Positions 1,738 through 53,539 of a stretch of DNA of 56,545 nucleotides are shown here, one piece after another. The stretch comes from Bacteroidota bacterium (GTDB taxonomy: Bacteria; Bacteroidota; Bacteroidia; Bacteroidales; UBA7960): positions 1 through 56,545 of the forward strand of contig JAGXRQ010000060.1 of assembly GCA_018335675.1 (NCBI GenBank), written 5' to 3'. The translations under genes were made by a program, and so were the position numbers. A model generated the notes under the pieces. It worked only from the letters and a program-made list of their open reading frames with translations, did not search any database and had not been told where the DNA came from. Each line of letters starts with the position of its first letter. Position 1 is the stretch's first letter.

Positions 1738-2079
1738 TTATTTCATTTCTATTAATACGAATGCCTTAGGCACCATATCTCCTAATTTGACATTGATCGA
1801 TTTTATATGTCCGTCAAAAGGAGCAATTATGATATTTTTCATCTTCATTGCTTCTAGTATAAGAAGTTCTTGTCCCTCTTTTACCTCATCTCCCTTTTTT
1901 ACAAAAATCTCAGGAATGCTGCCGGGCATAAATGCTTTTATTAATTTAGGATTTCTCGGAACATAAGGCTTTCTTTGAGAGTGCATTTTATTATGTAAAG
2001 TAATATATGCAGCATCATCTATAACCAATTCCGAATAAATGATTTCCTCTTTTTCTATTGTTTTTTTCGTTTTAGCCAT
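1738..2079 (-). CDS. Biotin carboxyl carrier subunit of an acyl-CoA carboxylase or decarboxylase
   Basis: Small (113 residues) swinging-arm protein that carries CO2 on biotin between active sites. The C-terminal half is a biotinyl domain with the motif EAMKMKN; Lys79 is the expected biotinylated residue. The N-terminal 45 residues are charged and have no alanine/proline-rich linker as in classical AccB. The gene lies downstream of the carboxyltransferase at 2241-3788 on the same strand, but 161 bases of repeats separate them. This carrier could serve propionyl-CoA carboxylase or a methylmalonyl-CoA decarboxylase; a biotin carboxylase subunit is not present in the window, so the exact complex is not settled. 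Confidence 0.85.
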   Translation of the reverse strand: MAKTKKTIEKEEIIYSELVIDDAAYITLHNKMHSQRKPYVPRNPKLIKAFMPGSIPEIFVKKGDEVKEGQELLILEAMKMKNIIIAPFDGHIKSINVKLGDMVPKAFVLIEMK

Positions 2080-2100: not shown

Positions 2101-2240
2101 ATAAATCTTAAATCTTACAAATCTTAAATCTATTTTGCCCCCCAGCCCCCTAAAGGGGGAGCTACAGAATCTTGTCCACTATCCACTATCCACTTAGCAC
2201 TTAGGACTCAGGACTCAGGACTGTTTACAAATCTTCAATC
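2101..2240. repeat. Spacer of short tandem repeats and a GC-rich palindrome between carboxylase genes
   Basis: Three elements follow one another. Bases 2102-2130 hold degenerate AAATCTT heptamers. Bases 2144-2163 read AGCCCCCTAAAGGGGGAGCT, an imperfect palindrome that recurs at 53368-53387 with two changes. Bases 2173-2221 are seven contiguous 7-bp units (TGTCCAC, TATCCAC twice, TTAGCAC, TTAGGAC, TCAGGAC twice). A final AAATCTTCAATCCT (2228-2241) runs into the stop of the carboxyltransferase gene and recurs at 51647-51660. Confidence 0.85.
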
Positions 2241-3788
2241 CTAAAACGGAGGAATACCATGCTTTTTAGTTGGAATCAACTGCTCTTTTGTTGCAGAAAT
2301 CTCAAGTGCATGAAGAACAAATTTTCTTGTATCATGTGGTTCAATTACTGCATCAACATAACCATGGGCGGCTGCAACATAAGGATTGGCAAACTTCTCC
2401 TTATACTCTTCAACTTTTTTCTTACGCATCTCCTCTGGATTCTCAGCATTTTTTATTTCACTTCTGAAAATAATGTTAGCAGCTCCTTCAGGACCCATTA
2501 CTGCAATTTCAGCTGTTGGCCAAGCAAACACAAAATCCGCTCTTAAATGTCTAGAACACATTGCTATATATCCACCACCGTATGCTTTTCTTAATATTAT
2601 AGTAACTTTTGGAACGGTAGCTTCAGAGTATGAATAAAGAATTTTTGCACCATGACGTATTACACCTGCATGTTCTTGGTCAATACCAGGTAAATAACCC
2701 GGAAGGTCAACCAAAGTAACAAGTGGAATATTGAATGCGTTGCAAAAACGAATAAACCTAGCTGCTTTATCAGACGAGTCAACATCAAGAACACCTGCCA
2801 GAACCATTGGCTGGTTGGCAACAAATCCAATTGTTTGTCCGTTCAATCTTCCAAACCCAACTACCATGTTAGCTGCAAATAGCTCCTGTACTTCAAAAAA
2901 CTCGCTATTGTCGGAAATTGATTTTATAACGTCTCTTACATCATATGGCTGCCTAGGATCGGCCGGCATAATTTTGTCAATCTTAAACTCTTCAGTTTTA
3001 GGTGCTTTCTTTGGAAATGGTTCAGCTTTTTTAGAATTATTCCATGGAATATATGTTACAAGCTTTTTTATTTGCTGGAAACATTCTGCTTCACTTTCTG
3101 CAAAGAAATGAGCATTTCCTGTAATTTCAGAATGAACTCTTGCCCCTCCAAGCTCCTCCATGCTAATCTCTTCTCCGAGTACAGATTTTATAACTTCAGG
3201 ACCGGTAATAAACATCTTGGAAATCTTGTCTACTACAAACACAAAGTCTGTTAGAGCAGGCGAATATACAGCACCACCAGCGCAAGGACCTAAAATTACC
3301 GAAATCTGAGGAATTACTCCGGAAGCCTGAGTATTTCTAAAGAATATCTCTCCATAACCTGCCAAGGAATTAACTCCTTCCTGAATTCTAGCTCCACCTG
3401 AATCATTAATTCCAATTATTGGAATTTTAAGATTCATTGCTAAATCCATAATCTTAGTGATTTTACGCGCATGCATCAAACCTAATGAACCTCCTGCTAC
3501 TGTAAAATCCTGAGCATAGATACAAACAGGATAGCCACTAATGGTGCCGGTACCGGTTATTACACCATCGCCAGGAAGCTGCTTCTTATCCATGTCAAAA
3601 TCCTTTGCTGCATGTTCAACAAATAAATCGTATTCATGAAATGAATTGGGGTCAAGCAATGAAATAATCCTTTCTCGGGCTGTCATTTTTCCCATTGCTA
3701 CTTGTTTTTCTATCGCCTGAGCGCCACCACCCTGCAATGCGTCCTGCATTCTCTTTTTCAGATCAAGAGTTTTTTGCTTTATTGACAT
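2241..3788 (-). CDS. mmdA: Acyl-CoA carboxyltransferase beta subunit (propionyl-CoA carboxylase / methylmalonyl-CoA decarboxylase alpha)
   Basis: Transfers carboxyl between biotin on the carrier protein and an acyl-CoA, most likely interconverting propionyl-CoA and (S)-methylmalonyl-CoA in propionate metabolism. The 515-residue product is full length for the family and has both crotonase-like halves: N-terminal GDGVITGTGTISG, AQDFTVAGGSLG, INDSGGARIQEG and GPCAGGAVYSPA; C-terminal VDLPGYLPGIDQE and RKAYGGGYIAMCSRH, which includes the second oxyanion-hole glycines. The start ATG is followed by the usual MSIKQKTLDLKKRM helix. The likely partner carrier is at 1738-2079. No membrane decarboxylase subunits are in view, so propionyl-CoA carboxylase and sodium-pump decarboxylase roles both remain open. 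Confidence 0.93.
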   Translation of the reverse strand: MSIKQKTLDLKKRMQDALQGGGAQAIEKQVAMGKMTARERIISLLDPNSFHEYDLFVEHAAKDFDMDKKQLPGDGVITGTGTISGYPVCIYAQDFTVAGGSLGLMHARKITKIMDLAMNLKIPIIGINDSGGARIQEGVNSLAGYGEIFFRNTQASGVIPQISVILGPCAGGAVYSPALTDFVFVVDKISKMFITGPEVIKSVLGEEISMEELGGARVHSEITGNAHFFAESEAECFQQIKKLVTYIPWNNSKKAEPFPKKAPKTEEFKIDKIMPADPRQPYDVRDVIKSISDNSEFFEVQELFAANMVVGFGRLNGQTIGFVANQPMVLAGVLDVDSSDKAARFIRFCNAFNIPLVTLVDLPGYLPGIDQEHAGVIRHGAKILYSYSEATVPKVTIILRKAYGGGYIAMCSRHLRADFVFAWPTAEIAVMGPEGAANIIFRSEIKNAENPEEMRKKKVEEYKEKFANPYVAAAHGYVDAVIEPHDTRKFVLHALEISATKEQLIPTKKHGIPPF

Positions 3789-4203
3789 AATTTTTTTTGT
3801 TATATTAAACTATTGAATTTCTTAAATATCACAATATTAGACTTTTACCTGATAGGAAAATTGTATTAAAAAAAAGTCCAAAGTAATAAAAAAAAAATGA
3901 AAGAATAGCCGTTTTTATAAACCATTTTTTTTATTCTTGATTATGCTTATACAATATTATACATGTATAATGTCTGGCTAACACTACTCTTAAGTTTATC
4001 TAAAAATCGCATTTACATGGGATGTCAGATGCAATATTTATATAAACATACTGCTGCATGTTGTTTTTTTTCATTTTTTTTCATTAAATTTGTTTTGCAT
4101 TATAAATATTTCCTATATTTGCTGCATAAAATATGAGTTGAAATCAACAAAACTCCTTAATTTTAAACTTTTAATTAATTCATTAACTAAAACAAAAAAA
4201 ATC
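3789..4203. promoter_or_regulatory. Divergent control region between the carboxyltransferase and a T9SS protein gene
   Basis: No gene is visible in these 415 bases. A perfect 16-bp palindrome, ATTATACATGTATAAT, lies at 3956-3971. A good Bacteroidota promoter for the rightward gene is at 4089-4121 (TTTG, 21-base spacer, TATATTTG). The leader motif ATTAACTAAAA is at 4182-4192, eleven bases before the start codon. No convincing promoter is seen for the leftward gene. Confidence 0.6.
4089..4121 (+). promoter_or_regulatory. Promoter of the T9SS protein gene
   Basis: TTTG at 4089-4092, a 21-base spacer and TATATTTG at 4114-4121 match the primary-sigma consensus of Bacteroidota (TTTG, about 19-21 bases, TAnnTTTG). 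Expected transcript start is just downstream, giving a leader of roughly 75 bases. Confidence 0.6.
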
Positions 4204-6126
4204 ATGAAGAAAATTTTTACATTACTATTGGTTTTCGTTGCGGCAATTACTTTTGCACAACGTGGTGCTGAAATTTCTTTGCAACAAGAATTTGATTCTC
4301 AGAACACTACTGTTCAAATTAAATCAGCTGACAAAGAAAATGAAGTAATACTTCCAGGAAACTGGGCACAGGTTACAACAGTTGGTACATACAGATGGAT
4401 GAATGGCGATACTCCAATGGGTTGGATTTTTGGTAACAATGGTTATGGTGCAGTTGGTGCCGGAGCAAAATTCAACGCAACTACTCCTTATCAGATAGTT
4501 GGTGCATATTTCTGGTTCGGCGCAGCAGCCGCAGGTGCATCAGAAATCACATTCTCTGTTTATGAGTTTGCAAGTGATGCAGTTGGCGATGTTATTGCCT
4601 CTAAAACACTTACTCTTGACGACCTATGGGCTCTTCCAACTTCAGGTGCTTCTCCAAGTGCATACGAAGATGCATTCTATTTTGAATTTGATGCTCCTGT
4701 TTCTGTTTCAGGTATGTATTTCTTAGGTTTTGACGCTTCTGGCGTTACCTGGGGTGCGCATGGCGACGGTGTAGGCTTAGGATCTAACACTATTGGTTCA
4801 GGTGGCGGCGGCGCTGGCATTGCTTATATTCTTCACACAGATGACGGATGGGAACCAGCTACAGCTTGGAATGCTGCTCTTAACCTTGACCTTGGAATTT
4901 TCCCTGTTGTTACTTACGGACCAAGTGATTATCATGAACTAACTCTTATTGTTAACATGACAGGTGCTGTTGCTGCCGGTGATGTTACTTTCGACCCTGC
5001 TGTACATGATGTTTATGTATCAGGTACTTTTGCTGGTTGGGCACAACCTGGTTCTGACGAAGCTTTCAAACTAGAACCTGTTGTTGTTGCTAAAGAAGGT
5101 GGTCTTTATGACTTCTTCGAAAGCTGGGAAGCCTATGCAGACTGGACTGTTGCTGGTGGTGATGCTGCCGGAACTAACTCTCTAGGAGCTTGGACTGTTA
5201 TTAACAATAAAGCAGGTACCAACAACTGGGGTTCTGCTGATTATACTTTTGCTGGCGAAGGTACAGATTATGGTTTGATTATTTTCAACCCTACAACTTC
5301 TGATCCTGCTGCAGATGCACATACTGCATACGATGCTGTTAAATATGCTGCTTTCACTCAGGCTAATGTTCTTGGAGATGACAAATGGTTAATTTCTCCT
5401 GCATTTGAAGTTACTGCAACTTCTGAACTTTCTTTCTGGGCAAAAGCTTGGACTCACGCTTACGGTGCTGAAAGATTCAAAGTTCTTGTTTCTACTTCAG
5501 GTCCTGCTCCAGCAAACTTTACAAAAATTTCTGCCGGTGATTATCTTGAATCAGCTACTGATTGGACTGAGTATACATTTGACTTAAGCGAATATGATGG
5601 TGAAACTCTTCATTTTGCTATTCAATATGTATCTTATGATGCTTTCTTCTGGTGTATAGATGCTATTACTGTATCTGACGTAGTTGCTCCAACTGAGTAT
5701 TTCTATACAATTACTCTTAATGTTGAAGAAGGAACTCATAATTACAAGTATTTCCTAGTTGAAGGTGCTCCATCTTGGGACATGGGAGAATGGGCAGGAG
5801 ATCCAAACCGTACGATTGTTGTTACAGAAGACATGACTCAAGAAGATGTTTGGGGTTACTGTGAAGATTGCGTTTCTGTTCCTGTTGTTAACGTAAACGA
5901 ATTCGTAGTATATCCAAATCCTGCTCGCGACATTATCAATGTTGTTTCAGGATCTCAAATCAACAATGTTAGAGTATTTGACCTAAGCGGAAGATTAGTA
6001 TTCAGCCAGTCATACAATGCTAACCAAGTTGTTCTTGATATTAACAACTTCAAAAACGGATTATACATTATGCAAATCGCTACTGGCGAAGGCATCCAAA
6101 ATGTAAAATTCAGCGTTGTGAAGTAA
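4204..6126 (+). CDS. T9SS-exported protein with cleaved-adhesin domain nested in a carbohydrate-binding-like sandwich
   Basis: A 640-residue secreted protein of unknown exact role. The ATG at 4204 opens a clear signal peptide (MKKIFTLLLVFVAAITFAQ); upstream in-frame codons would bury it. Residues about 60-265 are an unassigned beta-rich region with many Gly and Ala. Residues about 269-295 (DVYVSGTFAGWAQPGSDEAF) and about 495-535 (YTITLNVEEGTHNYKYFLVEG, then GEWAGDPNR) look like the two halves of one glycan-binding-like beta-sandwich. Between them, about 299-490, lies a cleaved-adhesin/choice-of-anchor-J domain (FFESWEAYADWTV ... DDKWLISPAFEV ... FDLSEYDGETLHFAIQY). The C-terminus (VYPNPARDIINVV ... 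GLYIMQI) is a type A sorting domain, so export to the cell surface by T9SS is expected. A strong terminator follows. Confidence 0.85.
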   Translation: MKKIFTLLLVFVAAITFAQRGAEISLQQEFDSQNTTVQIKSADKENEVILPGNWAQVTTVGTYRWMNGDTPMGWIFGNNGYGAVGAGAKFNATTPYQIVGAYFWFGAAAAGASEITFSVYEFASDAVGDVIASKTLTLDDLWALPTSGASPSAYEDAFYFEFDAPVSVSGMYFLGFDASGVTWGAHGDGVGLGSNTIGSGGGGAGIAYILHTDDGWEPATAWNAALNLDLGIFPVVTYGPSDYHELTLIVNMTGAVAAGDVTFDPAVHDVYVSGTFAGWAQPGSDEAFKLEPVVVAKEGGLYDFFESWEAYADWTVAGGDAAGTNSLGAWTVINNKAGTNNWGSADYTFAGEGTDYGLIIFNPTTSDPAADAHTAYDAVKYAAFTQANVLGDDKWLISPAFEVTATSELSFWAKAWTHAYGAERFKVLVSTSGPAPANFTKISAGDYLESATDWTEYTFDLSEYDGETLHFAIQYVSYDAFFWCIDAITVSDVVAPTEYFYTITLNVEEGTHNYKYFLVEGAPSWDMGEWAGDPNRTIVVTEDMTQEDVWGYCEDCVSVPVVNVNEFVVYPNPARDIINVVSGSQINNVRVFDLSGRLVFSQSYNANQVVLDINNFKNGLYIMQIATGEGIQNVKFSVVK

Positions 6127-6179: not shown

Positions 6180-6478
6180 ATTTTAAGTCCTGAGTCCTGA
6201 GTCCTGAGGAATAGCGAGCGTCATCTCGAGCGTCAGCGAGAGATCCGGTTGTTAAGCGCTCATCGACGGGATCTCTCCCTTCGTTTCACTTCGGTCGAGA
6301 TGACACATTTTCATTCGCGGTGGCTTCGAGTTCCTCAGCCACCATGCTCTCGCTCTCAGCCCTTCGCAATGTCACCCGCATATCACCATTTCCTATCACG
6401 TTTCTGTCACTCTACTGTCACTCTTCTGTAACTCTTCTGTAACTCTACTGTAACCCTACTGTAACTCTCCTGTCACCC
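6180..6478. repeat. Repeat-filled spacer between two convergent T9SS protein genes
   Basis: No gene is supported. In order: three GTCCTGA heptamers at 6187-6207 (the reverse complement of the TCAGGAC units at 2208-2221); a long imperfect inverted repeat at 6219-6305 whose arms share TCATCTCGA and GAGAGATCC; a GC-richer unassigned stretch at 6306-6390; and eight head-to-tail 11-bp units at 6391-6478 with consensus THCTGTMACYC. The last unit runs through the stop codon of the leftward protease gene at 6473. Confidence 0.85.
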
Positions 6479-34052: not shown

Positions 34053-34110
34053 CCCTGTCACTCTCCTGTCACTCTCCTGTCACCTTTTCCTGTAACTTTT
34101 CTGTCCCCTT
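34053..34110. repeat. 11-bp degenerate tandem array after comM
   Basis: About five head-to-tail units of the CCTGTCACTCT type (the first three exactly 11 bp, later ones 11-12 bp with TGTAACTTTT variants). The same motif family occurs at 6391-6478 and 53431-53500. It begins two bases after the comM stop. Confidence 0.85.
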
Positions 34111-35544: not shown

Positions 35545-35669
35545 TAGGGACAAGGCATTGCCTTGTCCCAACTGTCAACCCCAACGATTATTAGGTACAA
35601 GGCAATGCCTATTCCCAACTGTTAACCCCAACGATTATTAGGTACAAGGCAATGCCTTGTACCAACTGT
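35545..35669. repeat. 47-bp tandem repeat with a conserved hairpin (2.7 copies) between glyA and the RelA/SpoT gene
   Basis: Units at 35545-35591, 35592-35638 and 35639-35669 (partial). Each contains a 23-bp near-palindrome: unit 1 (35547-35569) has perfect arms GGGACAAGGCA / TGCCTTGTCCC; unit 3 (35641-35663) has perfect arms GGTACAAGGCA / TGCCTTGTACC; unit 2 (35594-35616) has a damaged right arm TGCCTATTCCC. The linker AACTGTnAACCCCAACGATTAT is shared. The last hairpin ends 15 bases before the next start codon. Confidence 0.92.
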
Positions 35670-51208: not shown

Positions 51209-51677
51209 AATCTAATCTGCTTTTGTCATTTTTAGTTTTTGTTTTGTCAGGAATTTTAATCAAATTTTCCTAATATTACTAAATTAACAAAAAAGCAGTC
51301 AAGTTGTTTTAAAAAGGACAATTTTGATTTTTTTTAAAGCGATGTTGATTTTTGCACTTTTCATCACGTCATGGAGACCACGAAGTAGCAGCGAAGCTAA
51401 ATCCCGTTGTTTCCCACACCGTCTTTTCGACCATCAGAGATTCTGTGTTAATTTCCAATTTTTAATTTGTGTAATAAGGTAATAATGTTGGTGGGGTGCT
51501 GGGTGCATGTTTTTATCGAGGTAATAAGGTTGGTTGCTGCAACCCCAGAAGCTGGAAGTCCCGCTAATGTGGAAGCTTCCAGTTCTTGCATGGAATTTCC
51601 AGCTTCTGCCTTAGCAGAACTGGAAACTTCCAAATACCATCTTCAAATCTTCAATCCTCCCAATCCTCTCAATCCTC
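51209..51677. repeat. Repeat-rich spacer between the E1 gene and pspC
   Basis: No gene is supported in these 469 bases. Two near-copies of GGTAATAAGGT lie at about 51476 and 51521. Bases 51546-51557 (CAGAAGCTGGAA) are repeated inverted at 51597-51608, enclosing the palindrome TGGAAGCTTCCA (51570-51581); 51571-51589 and 51614-51632 form a second, imperfect inverted pair. A 9-bp array (CAATCCTCC, CAATCCTCT twice, CAATCTGTA) spans 51652-51687 and runs through the pspC stop at 51678. Confidence 0.8.
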
Positions 51678-52832
51678 TCAATCTGTAATATCCGCACAAT
51701 CTTCTTCCTCTACCTCATTCAATTCTATCTTTACCGGTTCGCTATGTTTTTTGCACTCTGCGTTTGAAAAAGCATAAATAAAGCTGAATACGCAAAAAGA
51801 CAATCCTATTAGCCATAAGGTAAATGAAAATGCAGGCCAGAATTTACTTTTTGACCTTAGCCTGAATGTCATGCCTGCGCCTGCAGAAATTATCATGATT
51901 ATTGGGAGCCCCACTACCAGGGCAATGCCTACCATTGCAATGTTTGCAACCCATAACTCATTTATGAACATACTCAAAAACCCGGGAATTGATAGGAAAT
52001 TGGGCAGATTTAATAAAGTTGTGCTTTCTGTAAAAAATGAAAGTATAAAAATTGTCAAGGCAGTTATTCCGGCTATCATAAAGGCCAAGCCAAAAAAGAT
52101 TGCAAACACTTTGAACACTACCCGGAAAAATGATAAAATTGCGATTTCAAGTTTATCTTCAGACCCTTTTACTTCTGTTCCTTTTTTTTTTGACTTCCCG
52201 AAATTTTCTTCTGAGAATTTCTCGAATTGAACTTTTAGGTCTTTTATATCTTCTTTAATTGACTTTTCTATATTTGAAATATTAACTCTTTCGCCTTTCA
52301 TAGAAAGCTTTTCTGCTGTGGTTTCAGCTCTTGGCACTACTATCCACATAATCAAATATGCAAGTGGCCCAAACCCGTAAAAGAATGTAAACACAACGAA
52401 TGCTATTCTAACCCAAGTTGGGTCAATATTGAAATAAGCTGCCAATCCGCTTGCTACACCGGCAATATACTTGTTGTCTGGGTCGCGGTAAAATCTTCTT
52501 TCTTCGCGCCTTTCATATTTAGGCTCGCTTTTTTCTTCGGTTTTGGATTTATCTTTTGATTCTTTTTCATCTCCGTCAATCTGTCCGGGCTGACCTAATT
52601 GGGAAATTATATCATCAACATCATTGAGTGATACAACCTCTTTTCTCGAAGCGGTTTTTTCCTGAAACATCTCCGCAATTCTTGATTCAATGTCGGAAAG
52701 AATCTCATCGCCACCTTCTTCATTTGAAAAGTGTTTTCTTAGTGATTCCAGGTATTTGTTTAGTTTTTCAAATGCATCTTCATCAATGTGAAATATCAAT
52801 CCGCTGATATTTGCTGTTACTGTTTTTTTCAT
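51678..52832 (-). CDS. PspC domain membrane protein
   Basis: A 384-residue protein with an N-terminal cytosolic segment (VTANISGLIFHIDEDAFEKL, then a charged region rich in Glu and Lys), a PspC domain near 115-172 (NKYIAGVASGLAAYFNIDPT followed by a transmembrane helix LAYLIMWIVVP), a coiled charged stretch and several further membrane helices (about 230-260, 290-320, 335-365). Family members respond to envelope stress. It lies 30 bases downstream of a padR gene, and the PadR-PspC pairing is frequent in Bacteroidota. Its acidic C-terminus is encoded partly by a 9-bp repeat array. Confidence 0.85.
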   Translation of the reverse strand: MKKTVTANISGLIFHIDEDAFEKLNKYLESLRKHFSNEEGGDEILSDIESRIAEMFQEKTASRKEVVSLNDVDDIISQLGQPGQIDGDEKESKDKSKTEEKSEPKYERREERRFYRDPDNKYIAGVASGLAAYFNIDPTWVRIAFVVFTFFYGFGPLAYLIMWIVVPRAETTAEKLSMKGERVNISNIEKSIKEDIKDLKVQFEKFSEENFGKSKKKGTEVKGSEDKLEIAILSFFRVVFKVFAIFFGLAFMIAGITALTIFILSFFTESTTLLNLPNFLSIPGFLSMFINELWVANIAMVGIALVVGLPIIMIISAGAGMTFRLRSKSKFWPAFSFTLWLIGLSFCVFSFIYAFSNAECKKHSEPVKIELNEVEEEDCADITD

Positions 52833-53240: not shown

Positions 53241-53539
53241 TGCAAGGTACTTTAAATTAACATAAATTAACAAAGCTATTATAGTTGTTTTAGTCATAAG
53301 GCGACCGTCAATCGTGAACAATCCCATTCTCTAAGCTTATTCCTGTCACTTTTTTAATCAACACCCCAGCACCCTAGAGGGGGAGCTGATAACATTTATG
53401 CAAGTCCCTATACCCTATACCTTATACCCTCTTCTGTCACTTTCCTGTCACCATTTCCTGTCACTCTCTTGTCACTTTCCTGTCACCATTTCTGTAACTC
53501 AAAAAAAAAGTTGATATTTGCAATGGAAAGTTAAACGCA
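53241..53539. repeat. Repeat-filled spacer between padR and the CLC channel gene
   Basis: No gene is supported. The palindrome AGCACCCTAGAGGGGGAGCT is at 53368-53387, a diverged copy of that at 2144-2163. CTATACC-type repeats follow at about 53407-53430. Six degenerate 11-12 bp units of the TCCTGTCACTT family fill 53431-53500. GATATTTG at about 53514-53521, one mismatch from the -7 consensus, may serve the channel gene. Confidence 0.75.

Follow-up and report, generated by a model that had tools for sequence, protein, structure and literature searches.

Intergenic heptamer arrays with a fixed core and a gene-edge polarity in a Bacteroidota genome

We sought to establish what kind of element is formed by a run of heptamers at positions 2173-2221 of a 56,545-nucleotide stretch of a Bacteroidota bacterium (the whole stretch, hereafter the window, is contig 60 of an assembly of 3.36 Mb in 150 contigs), and how its placement beside a gene end might have arisen. 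The run reads TGTCCAC TATCCAC TATCCAC TTAGCAC TTAGGAC TCAGGAC TCAGGAC in an unbroken 7-bp register, as a preliminary description of the locus had stated, and its lag-7 score of 28.5 exceeded the best (13.0) obtained when the complete window was shuffled 200 times under a first-order (dinucleotide) model. Read in a phase that begins with ACT, the array spans 2173..2222 on the + (ACT) strand (seven units to 2221 in the earlier phase) and its full units are ACTATCC, ACTATCC, ACTTAGC, ACTTAGG, ACTCAGG and ACTCAGG. It lies 18 bp from the stop-codon end of a carboxyl transferase gene of the acyl-CoA carboxylase type (2241..3788, - strand; Pfam PF01039, E 9.3e-198), and a biotinyl/lipoyl carrier protein gene borders the far side of the gap (1738..2079, - strand; Pfam PF00364). 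A palindrome, CCCCCTAAAGGGGG (2146..2159, no strand), sits beside the array on its gap-facing side.

Two further heptamer arrays were considered in the window. GTCCTGA had been reported three times in reverse orientation at 6187-6207 near another gene end, and we found it there: the array at 6186..6208 (- strand; unit AGTCCTG on +, ACTCAGG on -; lag-7 score 16) lies 59 bp downstream of the end of a gene for a protein with a C-terminal secretion-sorting domain (4090..6126, + strand; Pfam PF18962). The third array, of the unit CCCTATA and with an ACC core, lies at 53406..53428 (+ strand). Tandem repeats of other periods were also present in the window. Arrays of 11-base units (CTGTAACTCTA, CCTGTCACTCT, CTGTCACTTTC) occur at 6390-6476 (no strand; on the far edge of the gap in which the 6186 array lies), 34054-34110 and 53434-53500, and similar ones in other stretches of the genome (e.g. 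L035); a 47-base unit is repeated 2.7 times at 35545-35669; and a nonamer array, TCAATCCTC (51639-51683), stands at the end of the gene at 51678-52832 (- strand) with its G-rich strand pointing away from that gene. The segment 6209-6305, which follows the 6186 array and precedes the 11-mer array, contains the inverted parts GAGATC / GATCTC and CATCTCGA / TCGAGATG, and may perhaps be a dispersed palindromic repeat.

The preliminary description had suggested a family of heptamer arrays spread in this genome, and this was borne out. Four consecutive ACT-N4 units gave 340 overlapping matches, against 43 for a reversed control. In 50 stretches (713 kb; a sample that includes the window and nine of 20 picked stretches, two of these nine, contigs 6 and 8, having ACT-N4 matches), we counted 28 period-7 segments versus 1 in shuffles, with period 8 next (13 versus 0). 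A sample of 81 stretches (1.25 Mb; the window itself, 20 stretches picked partly around ACT-N4 matches and 60 taken by contig number) yielded 79 heptamer arrays with a minimum length of 21 bp, so that 7-bp arrays plainly exist elsewhere. By core, 42 of these were ACT, 29 ACC and 8 other; this constancy is partly a product of the classing, since by a rough estimate some 44% of perfect heptamer arrays of random sequence would be expected to contain ACT, ACC or a complement in one phase or another, against the 71/79 observed. In an initial count over 388 kb that presupposed no core, ACC-type cores equalled ACT in frequency. Neither the constant ACT core nor the second class was noted in the preliminary description.

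The arrays are intergenic: 73/79 lay outside ORFs, though 90.5% of bases were coding by a simple ORF caller. Codirectional gaps held 45 arrays, convergent gaps 17 and divergent gaps 8, in available gap lengths of 54.5, 12.9 and 27.7 kb, respectively (81 stretches), and arrays adjoined stop codons more often than start codons. The genes next to them had mixed functions (six proteins, Pfam). Octamer arrays that are degenerate and follow the pattern AATNNGNN (AATGTGCC, AATATGCC, AATTAGTT), likewise with a constant and a variable part, were also seen at gene 3' ends (L046 14241-14307 and 19235-19309; L226 9025-9076; L233 4389-4442; L244 5875-5928; L298 2758-2801).

Units vary within the arrays of the genome sample, in agreement with the earlier view that the arrays have been remodelled. 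The further proposal, that the window array drifts stepwise from one sequence to another, held only in part. Its six steps involve 1, 0, 3, 1, 1 and 0 base changes; the passage from TATCCAC to TTAGCAC is a three-base jump. In the genome sample, differences of three bases were found in 16 of 361 neighbouring unit pairs, and differences of four bases in 3. TATCCACTATCCAC, representing the TATCCAC end, occurs once in the whole genome, at the 2173 array, and TCAGGACTCAGGAC, representing the TCAGGAC end, occurs 59 times, grouped into 26 places of which two are in the window; the two end units stand together nowhere but in the window array. With the TATCCAC pair unique and one step spanning three bases, we discarded the idea that arrays generally drift from one of these end units to the other.

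What does recur is a division of the unit. Mismatches between neighbouring units at positions 1 to 7 numbered 11, 11, 2, 90, 53, 31 and 26 in the ACT class, and 1, 5, 4, 47, 31, 8 and 29 in the ACC class, positions 1-3 being nearly fixed and 4-7 variable in both. Neighbouring units were also more alike than in shuffled order (mean distance 0.95 versus 1.24; 0/2000 shuffles as low; 44 arrays), and single-base steps between them comprised 101 transitions and 18 transversions. This variation is what slippage and point mutation would give, and it accounts for the impression of drift.

Degenerate seven-base intergenic arrays such as these are familiar from the STRR heptamers of cyanobacteria, and a genome paper on Geobacter metallireducens reportedly mentions heptanucleotide repeats. 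The present arrays also have the properties of long simple sequence repeats, in that seven-base units follow one another contiguously beyond chance and resemble each other locally as slippage products do. Such repeats, with units of 5-11 bases, were treated by Mrazek et al. 2007 as cited in PMC4679880 and PMC4692102, and the descriptions in the available portions of those two papers mention neither a core nor a polarity rule. MacGregor 2015 (PMC4679880), in the portion available, reports TAACTGA direct repeats that mostly stand immediately ahead of start codons in a Beggiatoaceae genome; the repeats also occur in Cyanobacteria and five Bacteroidetes, where they are partly mixed with other heptamers. 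Those repeats share with ours an intergenic position and a heptamer containing ACT, but they have one fixed unit and lie mostly at starts, whereas here units are mixed and arrays lie more at stop codons; no unit of the window arrays is TAACTGA. No literature on ACT-core arrays or their orientation toward gene edges in Bacteroidota appeared among the matches listed. Six 16-base repeat runs had no match in the literature searched. We consider it probable that the arrays belong to this known class of repeat and that slippage formed them.

Slippage alone does not predict a polarity, and a polarity was found. For each array we scored whether the ACT/ACC strand points to the closer of the two gene boundaries; ties of less than 15 bp were set aside. 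Arrays in ORFs, without a neighbouring ORF or without an ACT/ACC core (the last 8/79 in this genome and 59/187 at named-genome loci) were left out, two arrays sharing a gap counted as two, and gene ends came from a simple ORF caller, whose 5' edges are uncertain. In the 81 stretches of this genome the strand read toward the nearer edge in 49 arrays versus 8 (8 ties; p 2.7e-8), divided into 36 versus 4 at 3' edges and 13 versus 4 at 5' edges. The first 61 stretches gave 38 versus 6 (7 ties) and 20 held-out stretches 11 versus 2 (1 tie; p 0.022). Within the window the 2173 and 6186 arrays obey this rule, the ACT strand of each pointing to its nearest gene end, which fits their opposite orientations; the 53406 ACC array, whose nearer edge is on the opposite side, breaks it. 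In several codirectional gaps (L224, L035, L236, L244), two arms point opposite ways within one gap, so that neither transcription direction alone nor replication direction can set the polarity.

The same orientation was clear at loci of named genomes (67 versus 24, 8 ties; 46 versus 20 at 3' edges and 21 versus 4 at 5' edges; among the matches listed, 80 of 119 matching stretches used) and in a first set of 29 loci from the phylum (24 versus 4, 2 ties). These loci were chosen by an ACT-core pattern and so test orientation only. The named-genome loci came largely from Bacteroidota and Cyanobacteria, with single loci titled as other phyla and many metagenome bins. The rule was not shown in more distant Bacteroidota: 40 "blind" stretches, each taken from the very start (base 1) of contig 1 in genomes picked with the phylum pattern counts in view, gave 3 versus 3, and 30 further genomes of the phylum, whose loci were again picked by an ACT-core pattern, gave 12 versus 7 (5 ties; p 0.36, not significant). 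These counts weigh against our preferred explanation.

The RACT core was likewise not shown to be a privileged feature across the phylum. A five-unit RACT pattern had 213 overlapping matches in this genome and 0 in a same-genus genome (88% complete), and any match at all was found in 12/39 genomes searched, this one counted. In the phylum 171/395 genomes matched, but many genomes also matched the reversed control, which sometimes exceeded the pattern (in G217, 0 and 0 versus 320 and 185); part of this overlap comes from ACTCAGG units, which hold TCAG.

We also measured polarity independently of the core, as an excess of G over C on the strand leaving the nearer gene. This was found in 99/141 untied period-7 arrays at 3' edges and 67/92 at 5' edges (pooled), in 13/15 and 6/10 period-8 arrays, and in 10/15 and 5/7 arrays of other periods from 5 to 12. 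At array-free edges the skew of G over C was about 0 at 3' ends and 0.04-0.15 at 5' ends, so background contributes to the 5' figure. In the period-7 arrays of this genome alone, 5' edges gave 9 versus 6, which is not significant.

A polarity of this kind has a precedent. In the available portion of Rehm et al. 2015 (PMC4692102), G-rich heptamer repeats are described as GGGNATC in Xanthomonas and GGGGA(C/T)T in Nostoc PCC 7120, of which GGGAATC and GGGGA(C/T)T lie almost exclusively nearer the 5' neighbouring ORF, whatever the ORF orientation; quadruplexes are discussed there, and the repeats are given no identified role. By that account the two sets of repeats have much in common (seven bases, intergenic, genome-scattered, no more than 50 bp from gene ends, seldom between divergent genes, and with an identical polarity rule), the nearer ORF lying 5' of the G-rich strand in our 49 versus 8 arrays as scored by ACT/ACC orientation. 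They differ in that ours have an ACT/ACC core, ACT units without GGG, another phylum as host and four variable bases per unit that are mixed within arrays. A function or stability based on G-quadruplexes, as for the GGGNATC repeats, would draw on this shared rule and on those ACC-class arrays of the genome that carry GGG (ACCCTAT). However, units of the 2173 array contain at most GG on either strand, as does the main ACT class, and both follow the rule; with no GGG tracts in the ACT class, quadruplexes can explain the rule in part at most, and we regard this explanation as hardly credible.

Opposed arms within one gap raise a different alternative, namely that the arrays are the two hairpin stems of palindromic intergenic elements, single arrays having lost one arm. 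Neighbouring arrays no more than 600 bp apart were head-to-head, with ACT/ACC strands outward, in 12/13 pairs, the other being tandem and none having the opposite inverted arrangement. Predicted folding was better in the nine gaps with head-to-head pairs, where the median z was -3.0, than in array-free gaps, where it was -0.84 (n = 80, the first met of 100-300 bp, array gaps being 50-400 bp). Arms of one gap shared units more than shuffled partners did (0.68 versus 0.45; p 0.003), with class concordance in 9/12 (p 0.12). At L047 the first five units from the inside agree between the arms, and at L119 and L191 the pair surrounds an inner hairpin. By analogy, heptamers are known to build a stem: class II heptamers NNTGAGT form P6b of the Nostoc trnL intron according to the available portion of PMC4476775. 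They are degenerate with a fixed part, as ours are, and CCTGAGT, the reverse complement of ACTCAGG, fits them, but their stem is structured and lies inside a group I intron, whereas our arrays lie between genes.

Other observations weigh against this alternative. Single-array gaps fold no better than array-free ones (median z -0.4; n = 39), and on that ground a hairpin as the purpose of all arrays was not borne out. Arms are often unlike in their variable part (L035, L046, L113, L086, L138, L131, L096). No partner arm was seen for the window array at 2173-2221; the predicted fold of its gap (z -2.06; equally good in 10/200 shuffles) pairs the CCCCC/GGGGG parts of the palindrome, and GTCC with GGAC parts of the array. 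Apart from this question, no Rfam model matched anywhere in the window at gathering score. Outside this genome, one-gap pairs were head-to-head, opposite and tandem in 14, 2 and 7 of 23 cases at named-genome loci (among the matches listed). The first phylum set had seven such pairs, of which 4 were head-to-head and 3 tandem; the second had three, of which 1 was head-to-head and 2 were tandem; and the blind stretches had two, 1 head-to-head and 1 opposite. Separately, we observed at L119 (1293-1450) head-to-head ACT arrays flanking a near-perfect inner hairpin, so that the heptamers extend its stem.

Comparison with relatives also bears on the hairpin alternative. The carboxyltransferase beside the 2173 array has 94% protein identity in a same-genus genome (G001) and 86% in the genome G010, and the alignment shows no array of this kind in either; at the threshold applied, tandem arrays with periods of 6-12 were absent from the G001 locus. 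At another orthologous gene end (a single example), AAGGTAT heptamers in this genome are replaced by AATTGGTT octamers in G001, with the G-rich strand pointing away from the gene in both, and at a third orthologous gap the array has no counterpart in G001. These alignments indicate that the arrays turn over fast. That a relative differs in unit and period at a shared gene end counts against the palindromic-element reading, which we judge unlikely on balance. In one case (L047 12161-12442), synteny with G001 appears to break at a head-to-head pair, the two sides matching different contigs.

Selection on mRNA could impose an orientation from both sides, if C-rich sequence suits leaders before start codons and G-rich sequence suits the stretch after stops. 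It would agree with arrays adjoining both kinds of codon, with both edge types obeying the rule, and with the position of TAACTGA just before start codons in the Beggiatoaceae genome as given in the available portion of PMC4679880. Yet it needs a separate reason for each edge, the neighbouring genes are functionally mixed in the six cases inspected, and the 6186 array is probably outside the message because a terminator-like stem and T run precede it. We think this account improbable.

Spread by an IS200-like (Y1, REP-associated) transposase was examined across the 39 genomes. A Y1_Tnp match was present in 11/12 array-positive and 16/27 array-negative genomes (Fisher p 0.063), a presence/absence association that is not significant, and counts of Y1 and of arrays correlated (Spearman 0.52, p 0.0008, with no correction for either kinship or genome size). 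Palindromes of the form CCCCC..GGGGG, such as the one at 2146-2159, numbered 12 in the 81 stretches, 5 of them within 200 bp of a heptamer array, a zone holding 2.4% of bases. Against this, no common flank was visible in loci inspected by eye, and the array-positive genome G002 had no Y1 match, although it is only 68% complete. The transposase link is suggestive only, and spread of the arrays by this route seems very unlikely.

Our preferred reading is that the arrays are known slippage-grown heptanucleotide repeats with a fixed core, whose polarity comes from one-sided growth; we give this whole statement a probability of roughly 0.35. Whole units would be gained and lost by slipped or template-switched copying, the common core supplying the pairing that holds copying in register, and point mutations in the free bases would spread locally and read as drift. 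Units would be added at the gap-facing side of the G-richer strand, the gene side being fixed by selection on the gene, and no regulatory role would be required. The polarity part, growth out of gene edges, is tentative and rather doubtful: a gradient of age or rarity from gene side to gap side was absent (38 arrays, p 0.86), and arms growing independently are not predicted to share units as they do.

A bolder reading is that the arrays record telomere-like healing of breaks, in which ends are extended from genes by G-richer repeats and then joined without Ku. After an intergenic break, each side's 3' end would be extended away from its gene by RGTNNNN heptamers (elsewhere octamers), with priming on the three-base core and with other arrays serving in part as template; head-to-head arrays would then be the scars of such fusions, oriented as in fused telomeres. 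If true, this would account for the anchoring at edges, the polarity, the mismatched arms and the changed unit and period in the relative. No enzyme for it was identified, however, and the missing age gradient counts against it as well. Ku had no match in the 39 genomes, while the control matched in Bacillus subtilis; joining by Ku was rejected on this result, and any joining of broken ends would have to go another way. We hold break healing to be quite unlikely.

Overall, the arrays are of a known kind of repeat. The edge rule reported for quadruplex-forming heptamers recurs, strongly in this genome and clearly at the named-genome loci from several phyla, in arrays without GGG. This points to some process that favours the growth or survival of such repeats in one direction from gene edges.
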